Source: Hymenobacter sp. J193
Lineage (GTDB): Bacteria; Bacteroidota; Bacteroidia; Cytophagales; Hymenobacteraceae
NCBI RefSeq assembly: GCF_024700075.1
Contig: NZ_JAJONE010000001.1
Span: forward strand, 2,756,001-2,820,000
Length of the DNA: 64,000 nucleotides
Direction of reading: 5' to 3'
Shown here: positions 56,422 to 59,639 of the stretch, piece by piece
Layout: every line of letters starts with the position of its first letter
Position numbering within the stretch: the stretch's first letter is position 1
Program-made: the position numbers and the translations under genes
Notes under the pieces: generated by a model
Told to the model about the DNA's origin: nothing
The model's input: the letters and a program-made list of their open reading frames with translations, nothing else
The model's database searches: none

Positions 56422-57456
56422 CTACACGAATGCCCGAGCAAAGAAGCGCTCCAGGAAGTGCGTGATTTGGGCGGTTTCAATCAGAAAGCCGTCGTGTCCG
56501 AAGCCGGACTCCATTTCGGCGTACATAGCGCCGGGAATGTGCCGGGCCAAAAGCCGCTGCTCGGCGGGCGGAAACAGCACATCCGAGCTGATGCTGACAA
56601 CCAGCGTGCGGGCCTGAATGCCGGCCAGCACCGGGGCCAGCTCGCCGCCGCGCCCTCGCCCCAGGTGGTGCGTGTCCATCGTGCGCGACAAAGCCACGTA
56701 CGTGTACGCGTTAAAGCGAGCCACCAGCTTGTCGCCCTGGTATTGCTGGTAGGCGCTGGCCCGGAAATCGGTTAACTGGTCGTCGGTGGGCTCAGCCTGG
56801 GTTTGCTGGTAGGCGCCGTAGCTGCGGTAGCTGAGCAGGGCCGTAGCCCGGGCTGCCCGCATACCAGCCGCGCCGCCATCGGGCGTGGCCGCGTAGTAGG
56901 TATCGTCGGCAAAGATGGCCAGACGCTGCGCTTCATTGAAGGCAATACCCCAGGGCGAGTGCCGGGCGTTGGTGGCCAGCACTACCAGGTTTTCGAACAG
57001 CGTGGGCTGCTGTACGGCCCATTCCAGCGCCTGCTGCCCGCCCATCGAGCCCCCGATCAGCGTATGGATCCGCTCGATGCCCAGGTGCCGGCGTAGCTGC
57101 TCGTGGGCCGCCACCAGGTCGCGGATGGTGAGGAGCGGAAACGCCTGAAACCACGGGGTTTCCGTGTCAGGGTGGGGGCTGAGCGGGCCGGTAGAGCCGT
57201 AGCAGGAACCCAGGATATTGGCACACACAATAAAATGCTCCTCGGGATTGAAGTAGCAGCCCGTGCCAAACAGGCCGGGCCACCAGGCCAGCACATCGGA
57301 GTTGGCCGTGAGGGCGTGGCACACCCACACCACGTTGTCGCGGGCCGCATTGAGGGTGCCGTAGGTGTGGTAGGCTAGCTGCGCGTGCGGTAGTACGGCC
57401 CCGTTTTCCAGCGGAAGGGCAGCAGGTAAGCGGTATAAGTGCGGTTCAGCGGTCAT
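56422..57456 (-). CDS. metX: Homoserine O-acetyltransferase
   Basis: A 344-residue alpha/beta hydrolase-fold enzyme that acetylates homoserine with acetyl-CoA in methionine synthesis. The motifs are VCHALTANSDV, NILGSCYGSTGPLSPHP, the nucleophile Ser in IGGSMGGQQALEWA, the catalytic Asp in SISSDVLFPP and the His in SGFGHDGFLIE. Residues GSCYGSTGP are typical of MetX rather than succinyltransferases. It lies 227 nt downstream of metY and would make the substrate for MetY. A terminator sits directly in front of its ATG. Confidence 0.95.
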   Translation of the reverse strand: MTAEPHLYRLPAALPLENGAVLPHAQLAYHTYGTLNAARDNVVWVCHALTANSDVLAWWPGLFGTGCYFNPEEHFIVCANILGSCYGSTGPLSPHPDTETPWFQAFPLLTIRDLVAAHEQLRRHLGIERIHTLIGGSMGGQQALEWAVQQPTLFENLVVLATNARHSPWGIAFNEAQRLAIFADDTYYAATPDGGAAGMRAARATALLSYRSYGAYQQTQAEPTDDQLTDFRASAYQQYQGDKLVARFNAYTYVALSRTMDTHHLGRGRGGELAPVLAGIQARTLVVSISSDVLFPPAEQRLLARHIPGAMYAEMESGFGHDGFLIETAQITHFLERFFARAFV

Positions 57457-57620: not shown

Positions 57621-59233
<1,613 letters not shown>

Positions 59234-59277: not shown

Positions 59278-59436
59278 CTAGCAACAGCAACAACACGCGC
59301 CGCAACAGGGGCGCATTCGCATTCGCTCCGCAACCGGGCTAAGAGCAGCCACGCGGAAACCCCACGGCTGAACGGCGAGCAAAGATGCGGCCGGAGCGGT
59401 AGGGTTAGTAGAGGCGAAAGCGAAGGAGTTTTCCAT
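59278..59436 (-). CDS. 52-residue polycysteine leader peptide upstream of metY
   Basis: A short ORF starts at ATG 59436 and ends at TAG 59278. The N-terminal 35 residues are ordinary and coding-like (MENSFAFASTNP, LLAVQPWGF); the C-terminus reads RMRMRPCCGACCCCC, with seven Cys in the last nine codons (both TGT and TGC used), immediately before the stop. The ATG is 10 nt after the last base of the SAM-I aptamer and lies in the same leader mRNA as metY, whose ATG is 211 nt past the stop. Known polycysteine leader ORFs act by ribosome stalling when cysteine is low; a small metal-binding protein is the alternative. Confidence 0.72.
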   Translation of the reverse strand: MENSFAFASTNPTAPAASLLAVQPWGFRVAALSPVAERMRMRPCCGACCCCC

Positions 59437-59446
59437 GGTACTCGAA

Positions 59447-59560
59447 GGTTATATGCCCCGCCGCCGGAAGGCTGGTCGGGCAGGAATTGGCACCTTTCGC
59501 GCGGTCGAAGGTTGCCAGCGGGTCACGGAGCCTGTTCTCTCGCCGCTTCTGTATAAATCC
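59447..59560 (-). promoter_or_regulatory. SAM-I (S-box) riboswitch aptamer of metY
   Basis: Read on the minus strand, conserved S-box sequence is clear: GGCAACC, AAGGTGCCAATTCCTGCC and GAGAGAACAGG-type core. The stems can be drawn: P1 GGATTTATAC with CATATAACC (imperfect), P2 AGCGG/CCGCT, P3 ACCTT/AAGGT, P4 CCTGCC/GGCGGG. SAM binding should lower expression of the downstream methionine genes. No terminator follows directly; the leader peptide ORF begins 10 nt later, so control of that ORF's translation is possible. Confidence 0.92.
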
Positions 59561-59607
59561 TATGAAAACTACCCCGCCGCGAGCGGGGGAGTACCGGGTT
59601 GGTGTTG

Positions 59608-59639
59608 CAAAGGTATAGCCATGATTTTGATATATGCAA
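59608..59639 (-). promoter_or_regulatory. TTG-N21-TACCTTTG promoter of the metY leader
   Basis: On the minus strand TTG (59639-59637) and TACCTTTG (59615-59608) are 21 nt apart. The start site would be near 59600, about 40 nt before the riboswitch and 535 nt before metY. Confidence 0.8.

Follow-up and report, generated by a model that had tools for sequence, protein, structure and literature searches.

The metY leader of Hymenobacter sp. J193 contains a short ORF that ends in a run of Cys codons, which raises the question of whether this ORF is a cysteine-responsive attenuator, as the initial annotation proposed, or belongs to a larger regulatory element. The window analyzed here is a 64,000-nucleotide stretch of the J193 genome, and its features at this locus are collected in Table 1.

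The metY leader in the window

The 52-codon ORF that had been reported in the metY leader was borne out; it runs from 59436 to 59278 on the minus strand, ends in RMRMRPCCGACCCCC before its stop, with 7 Cys among the last 9 codons, and lies 211 nt from metY. Directly 5' of it, and absent from the initial annotation, is a SAM-I riboswitch, with 9 nt between the 3' end of the aptamer and the leader ATG. At the Rfam gathering threshold, SAM-I was the sole match across the entire window, neither a second aptamer nor a T-box being matched. Judged from its sequence, the ORF forms the 3' half of a composite element; a SAM-I riboswitch heads this element, and RNA flanking the riboswitch can pair with the leader start region. 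The nearest named metY is that of Hymenobacter lutimineralis (95% identity), and metX, which scored under the cut-offs of its best matches (354.1 bits with a cut-off of 500 for TIGR01392 and 329.5 bits with a cut-off of 331 for PRK00175), is likely to be co-transcribed with it. The promoter-like box TATACCTTTG resembles TAnnTTTG, which we take to be the Bacteroidota -7 consensus, and such boxes were seen by eye at the equivalent place in the aligned Hymenobacter metY loci.

The J193 genome has five SAM-I riboswitches in total, three of which are followed by a Cys-tailed short ORF. Apart from metY, these are the cysH (PAPS reductase) locus L002, where the leader ends in VNHLSNLVPASATSIAVQHGCCATMGMACCC before the stop, and the amino-acid permease locus L004, where it ends in VDFLPRLTARPVVPAASLCPYVAAEACCSKQCCC. 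No Cys-tailed ORF was found at the remaining two SAM-I loci of the genome, which precede a cystathionine synthase-like gene and metH (both names read from translation).

Table 1. Features of the metY leader region, listed in the direction of transcription; positions are those of the window.
Feature	Position	Strand	Basis or remark
Promoter-like box TATACCTTTG	59608..59617	(-)	Read from sequence; transcription start inferred from the box
P0 5' strand, GGTACTC	59589..59595	(-)	Complementary to the bases right before the leader ATG
Hairpin H0 (CCCCGC/GCGGGG), then short U run	59572..59588	(-)	Between P0 and aptamer; 59595-59561 region
SAM-I riboswitch aptamer (RF00162), 114 nt	59446..59559	(-)	64.4 bits by cmscan (E 1.1e-12) against a gathering score of 44.4
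P0 3' strand, GAGTACC	59437..59443	(-)	Abuts the leader ATG; pairs with 59595-59589
Polycysteine leader ORF, 52 aa	59278..59436 (stop included)	(-)	ATG start, TAG stop, ends RMRMRPCCGACCCCC
Predicted hairpin over first Cys codons	59292..59317	(-)	RNAalifold consensus, 21 Hymenobacter leaders
Cys tail CCGACCCCC	59281..59307	(-)	Read from sequence
Terminator-like hairpin TCGGCTACG-CTTCTT-CGTAGCCGG, 9 bp, then TTTTCC	59118..59147	(-)	Between leader and metY
metY, O-acetylhomoserine sulfhydrylase, presumed target	57684..59066	(-)	TIGR01326 682 bits, cut-off 495
metX, homoserine O-acetyltransferase, 3' of metY	56422..57456	(-)	TIGR01392 and PRK00175 best matches

Conservation of the leader and its Cys tail

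Absence of the ORF from related metY leaders would speak against the proposal, and the claim was not refuted on this point: a script detected an ORF having 3 or more Cys among its final 8 codons upstream of metY at 27 of the 30 metY loci of the genus Hymenobacter, and a Cys-tailed ORF precedes all 20 metY genes fetched from four sister genera (picked from a listing of 142 genomes with a match, the genus of the window included). Two of the loci missed by the script (L102 and L104) carry, by eye, the same leader with fewer Cys, ending CWGC(R/W)M, which brings the genus to 29/30, window included; at L100, metY lies in a different context and the leader is absent. From the same genus, 40 mostly short SAM-I matches were picked, mainly for short match length and after a Cys ORF had been noticed at five short-match loci (L002, L004, L013, L015, and L033). 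Thirty-nine of them belong to class B, defined by an ATTTATA-type aptamer 5' strand, and one (L036) to class A, which is of the CTTATC type. All 39 class-B matches are accompanied by an ORF that starts with GTG and contains 3 or more Cys, and in 31/39 these Cys lie within the last 12 codons. At three Hymenobacter loci (L033, L044, and L049), SAM-I and a Cys leader lie 5' of an ATP-grasp-like gene, which in L033 matches Pfam RimK just over the cut-off and in the other two was assigned by similar sequence.

The two aptamer classes were also compared in an order- and class-level sample of 90 loci, made up of 40 order-level and 20 class-level loci picked by hand and the 30 best-scoring class-level ones; hand-picking drew on longer listings and preceded ORF inspection, and the class-level 20 favored genomes with several or short SAM-I matches. 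A leader, here an ORF of 12-75 aa that has 3 or more Cys among its final 12 codons and begins 80-200 nt 3' of the aptamer start, was found at 18/30 class-B and 0/57 class-A loci, three loci being unclassified. The 12 class-B loci not counted include four with two Cys near the ORF end (L156, L165, L222, and L244) and several others without a Cys tail or without a leader. Classes in this sample were read from the aptamer 5' strand, replacing a regex assignment that gave no class for 29 loci and wrongly put four Hymenobacter metY leaders (L084, L088, L089, and L093) into class A. A different serial arrangement was seen at the class-A loci L239 and L227, where the SAM-I aptamer is followed by a terminator-like hairpin (by eye) and then by a Cys/Met-rich short ORF, ending in ...ACCCCQKFAACCCKC and ...IRMCMELCCSS, respectively.

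An aptamer-only pattern applied to named genomes matched at least 120 stretches, for which 80 loci are listed, mostly in Pedobacter and Mucilaginibacter, with Psychroflexus, Thermoflexibacter, Pontibacter, Bernardetiaceae, Cyclobacteriaceae, and Saprospiraceae also among the matches listed. Two of the 80 loci listed are truncated at the locus end and one (L281) is without a leader, leaving 77 readable loci. Each of these listed loci has an ORF of 30-47 aa directly after the aptamer, and its ATG lies 10-15 nt 3' of ATATAA in 76/77. Of the readable ORFs listed, 69/77 contain 3 or more Cys within their final 12 codons, compared with 5/871 ORFs from dinucleotide shuffles and with 8/77 and 0/77 in the +1 and +2 frames, respectively. 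Across the matches listed, Cys and Met account for 37.7 and 13.3% of the last 12 codons and for 2.8 and 0.8% of those before them (start codon excluded), both Cys codons are in use (TGT 229, TGC 175), and clustering at about 50% identity gave 41 clusters, 38 of which have the Cys tail. Judged by its translation, the gene 3' of the leader is either metX or metY at almost every locus listed; L271 instead has a TonB receptor, and L293 has a sulfite reductase-type protein. Locus L281, from the Bacteroides sp. SM23_62_1 MAG, has a class-B aptamer with metY 14 nt on and no leader between them, and the riboswitch may there control translation of metY itself. As for existing annotation, three Pedobacter homologues of the leader are entered as "hypothetical protein" at NCBI, one of which, the metY leader peptide of Pedobacter vanadiisoli (P0001), is a "Natural product" in UniRef.

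The initial annotation had also considered the Cys run very unlikely to arise by chance. As a bare pattern, CCC+TRR is not rare (TGYTGYTGYTRR has 257 matches genome-wide, most of those listed being Trp-ended), so the run by itself is weak evidence and the case for a leader rests on position and conservation (5/871 in shuffles against 69/77 of the loci listed). A chance origin of the run was rejected on this enrichment together with pN/pS, which was calculated pairwise and summed over non-independent pairs in chosen sets of alignable leaders, taking the last 14 codons as the tail. The ratio was lower in the tail than in the body in all three sets: 0.43 (tail) and 0.76 (body) among the metY leaders of 12 Pedobacter loci, 0.38 and 0.74 among those of 15 Hymenobacter loci, and 0.14 and 1.28 among 8 Hymenobacter cysH leaders. 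RNA structure in the tail may also restrain change there. One hallmark of ribosome-mediated attenuators is present, namely a conserved leader ORF that is rich, toward its end, in codons for the amino acid under control, and on comparative grounds the ORF is a well supported candidate for a cysteine-responsive leader peptide.

The pattern TGYTGYTGYTGYTGYTRA, searched in 79 genomes, proved too noisy, 25 of the 30 returned loci matching inside an ORF of at least 100 codons in another frame. The other five comprise three with a SAM-I match (L372, L382, and L391) and two with none (L366 and L373). In L366 (~1200-1760, minus orientation), a polyCys leader ending ...DQPCCCCCC, with no SAM riboswitch found, precedes a U-tailed hairpin (by eye), beyond which lies a TonB-dependent receptor gene, making the leader a possible stand-alone Cys attenuator. 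At G074:C5 11211-14270 (L376), TGCTGTTGCTGCTGTTAA repeats at multiples of 234 nt inside a long other-frame ORF.

RNA pairing around the leader

GGTACT is present in 29/29 Hymenobacter metY leaders (28 distinct). In these 29, the motif, as GGUACU(C) in the RNA, can pair with a GAGU(A/G)CC that abuts the leader ATG, L097 with one mismatch. In the alignment, 99.5% of cells are paired in P0, 96.9% in H0, and 96.4% in P1, and H0 has compensatory changes at 6/6 pairs. Taken together, P0/H0/P1 have 97.8% of cells paired compared with 31.9-51.2% in slid controls and a covariation score of 0.202 compared with 0.034-0.082, both comparisons being favored by a structure that was derived from one aligned sequence. 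P0 rests mostly on conservation because four of its seven pairs never vary; a U-G exchange occurs in 11/28 rows, and two-sided change is limited to one pair in one sequence, in which the neighboring pair is broken. In the sister genus g74, different sequences seem by eye to pair at the place of P0 (e.g. L175 AGCAUG with CGUGCU). Since sequence on the 5' side of the aptamer is able to pair right up to the leader ATG, SAM probably shuts off leader translation. Pairing of the flank with the uORF start, by which a riboswitch-controlled uORF can be recognized, was found in Hymenobacter metY only. H0 and its U run, which lie between the promoter-like box and the aptamer in Hymenobacter metY leaders, look terminator-like and could have another role.

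A first duplex test of start sequestration took in the P1 core and overstated the effect outside Hymenobacter metY; it was replaced by a strict test in which the P1 core was left out, the flank was 24 nt, and the controls were swapped and shuffled. The strict duplexes reached -3.12 kcal/mol in the aptamer-only pattern set (matches listed; swapped -2.92, shuffled -2.57), -3.44 kcal/mol in the Hymenobacter short class (swapped -3.32, shuffled -4.18), -3.42 kcal/mol in other loci (swapped -2.87, shuffled -2.78), and -5.89 kcal/mol in Hymenobacter metY (swapped -5.7, shuffled -6.58), where the 24-nt flank excludes P0. Outside Hymenobacter metY, pairing past the P1 core is not convincing and the strict test is weak; the argument for gating is there the fixed spacing from aptamer to start codon.

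Downstream of the leader start, the predicted folds differ between lineages. The RNAalifold consensus of 21 Hymenobacter leaders includes a 6-bp core of the terminator-like hairpin between leader and metY; U-tailed hairpins with a perfect stem occur in some Hymenobacter leaders but not in others, and inspection of the Pedobacter and Mucilaginibacter alignments by eye revealed none. Because the terminator search had a patchy outcome, intrinsic termination is not claimed as general. For Mucilaginibacter, RNAalifold gave 4 pairs only, probably through misplacement of stems in the alignment, and pairwise duplexes were used instead on 32 Mucilaginibacter-type leaders picked from the aptamer-only pattern set. 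The Cys codons paired with the segment after the stop at a mean of -10.9 kcal/mol (shuffled -7.8; better in 26/32), and the post-stop segment paired with a segment further down at -12.1 kcal/mol (shuffled -8.9; better in 31/32). Both pairings share one segment in 32/32 leaders, like attenuator regions 1:2 and 2:3; because such overlap occurs in 95% of shuffles, the pairing strengths are the evidence and the overlap is not. In 26 Pedobacter leaders, the pairing of Cys codons with the post-stop segment was absent (better than shuffled in 5/26), and in 15 Pedobacter leaders the Cys codons lie in a hairpin of their own, after which come two further hairpins that are conserved, compensatory changes being present in one of the two. 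In 19 other leaders of the pattern set, the two pairings were no better than chance (11/19 and 9/19). The last step could be intrinsic termination, Rho, translation, or something else.

A putative serial switch for sulfur assimilation

The reading that we favor, at a probability of roughly three in four, is a serial two-input switch in which SAM-I gates the leader and cysteine supply gates metY and related genes. The sequences themselves establish the aptamer, the leader, their conservation, the P0/H0 pairing of Hymenobacter metY, and the stable alternative pairings of the Cys codons of Mucilaginibacter type; SAM binding, leader translation, stalling, and the direction of each step are inferred. 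In Hymenobacter metY, P1, lengthened by P0 (GGUACUC:GAGUACC), would reach the leader start codon, and because the aptamer-closing helix does so, SAM-I would control leader translation, the SAM-bound RNA hiding the leader start and the SAM-free RNA exposing it, such that the leader would be silent when SAM is high. Once the leader is translated, the ribosome would meet the terminal Cys codons, and some Met codons, and would stall if charged tRNA-Cys were scarce; the stall would lead to refolding of the leader-metY RNA and to metY expression. With ample cysteine, on the other hand, the ribosome would reach the stop and the OFF fold would form. On this scheme, metY, cysH, and related genes would be fully on only at low SAM and low cysteine, and the Met codons in the tails suggest that methionine supply may be read too. 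With less confidence, we lean toward a wider form of this serial switch, in which SAM would decide whether the second sensor is read and the charging of Cys (possibly also Met) tRNA would set the outcome, giving a serial SAM, Cys, and Met gate for sulfur assimilation across several Bacteroidota groups (Hymenobacter, Pontibacter, Pedobacter, Mucilaginibacter, Thermoflexibacter, Psychroflexus, and a Saprospiraceae MAG) whose downstream folds differ by lineage while the codon run and the aptamer spacing persist. The element itself is genuine, conserved in several groups of Bacteroidota, and coherent in function. The cysteine-responsive attenuator of the initial annotation thus stands in part: the conserved tail, its low pN/pS, the fixed position, and the sulfur genes 3' of it support such a function, but the description was incomplete in that SAM-I heads the element and the tails are enriched in Met as well.

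The weak pairing past P1 outside Hymenobacter metY would also fit two independent elements in series, SAM-I acting alone and the Cys leader being a separate attenuator whose translation is not gated by SAM, and so would the polyCys ORF of L366, which precedes a TonB receptor with no riboswitch found, and L239 and L227, in which a riboswitch of the other class and a terminator-like hairpin (by eye) precede the Cys/Met ORF. Such independence is nevertheless unlikely given that the start codon keeps within 10-15 nt of the aptamer motif in 76/77 of the loci listed, that P0 reaches the start codon in 29/29 Hymenobacter metY leaders (one with a mismatch), and that an immediate leader was found only after class-B aptamers in the 90-locus sample. 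Two further explanations would do away with cysteine sensing altogether. The leader could encode a functional Cys-rich peptide (metal binding, a RiPP precursor, or a small protein) that has come under SAM control incidentally, in keeping with its Cys content and with the "Natural product" entry of one Pedobacter homologue in UniRef; this is very improbable in view of the body pN/pS of 0.74-1.28, the length of 30-47 aa (pattern set, matches listed), the protein search with the window leader as query, which found no homologue, and the placement of the Cys at the extreme end, before the stop. That RNA structure or CTG-rich repeats (TGYTGY), rather than coding for cysteine, gave rise to the Cys run is scarcely credible, even though TGCTGC repeats are common in the genome and the Cys codons of Hymenobacter and Pedobacter lie inside predicted hairpins, since the enrichment is in frame (69/77 compared with 8/77 at +1 and 0/77 at +2, matches listed), TGT and TGC are both used, and pN/pS is lower in the tail than in the body.

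The serial switch favored here shares features with several known systems. In ribosome-mediated attenuation of the trp type, the regulatory codons lie at the end of the leader ORF. The present leaders have such end-placed codons, which in the Mucilaginibacter type pair with the post-stop segment, but a general U-tailed terminator was not seen and leader initiation appears to be SAM-gated. Polycysteine short ORFs acting as cysteine attenuators have been described in mycobacteria (Canestrari 2020, as cited in PMC13236596), and the likeness, as far as the citing text conveys it, lies in a poly-Cys leader before sulfur genes and in stalling at low cysteine that is expected to turn the gene on. The mycobacterial ORFs are leaderless in that account, whereas here a 114-nt SAM-I aptamer and a conserved 5' hairpin precede the ATG; the phylum is different, a sequence relation was not seen, and the tails are also Met-rich. 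The element does not belong to the mycobacterial type of polycysteine ORF, which is leaderless and stands alone. In Mycobacterium tuberculosis, riboswitch-controlled uORFs have been reported for B12 metE/ppe2 (PMC11260477) and Mbox pe20 (PMC12810186), where a riboswitch and a short ORF act jointly in one leader; in the abstracts, they are not presented as amino-acid sensors, whereas the uORF described here has Cys codons at its end and is found again in several families. Tandem SAM-I/T-box(Met) leaders before metX/metY genes follow "NOT A AND B" logic (PMC9481103) and likewise join SAM-I to a sensor of amino-acid supply; by comparison with that partial account, the second sensor here would be a translated leader ORF, would read cysteine instead of Met tRNA, and probably acts via the riboswitch output. 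The candidate Cys-codon attenuator uORFC-8-2 of cysS in Rhodobacterales (PMC8632094) also has tandem Cys codons of a leader ORF within a stem, with features of its own in the excerpted description, namely two Cys codons, a U-tailed terminator, a cysS target, and no riboswitch described. Within Bacteroidota, a flavobacterial transcriptome gave clues to leader-peptide attenuation 5' of amino-acid biosynthesis operons, cysteine being unnamed in the portion concerned (PMC9723704), and leader-like sORFs have been noted in Bacteroides (PMC7366714, as excerpted). Coupling of SAM-I to a Cys leader in Bacteroidota was not described among the best-ranked matches in the open-access literature, a scope outside which most subscription papers lie.

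The element appears to be a SAM-I riboswitch with a cysteine-sensing leader ORF as its expression platform, a variant on known kinds of control that unites, in a single conserved module, two textbook mechanisms: the metabolite riboswitch and leader-peptide attenuation. Its small ORFs form a class that is unannotated, and other riboswitches seem worth inspecting for sensor ORFs. If the reading is true, a small ORF serving as expression platform would explain the missing obvious terminator beside Bacteroidota class-B SAM-I aptamers, and the module offers a ready test of serial RNA logic in non-pathogenic soil bacteria.
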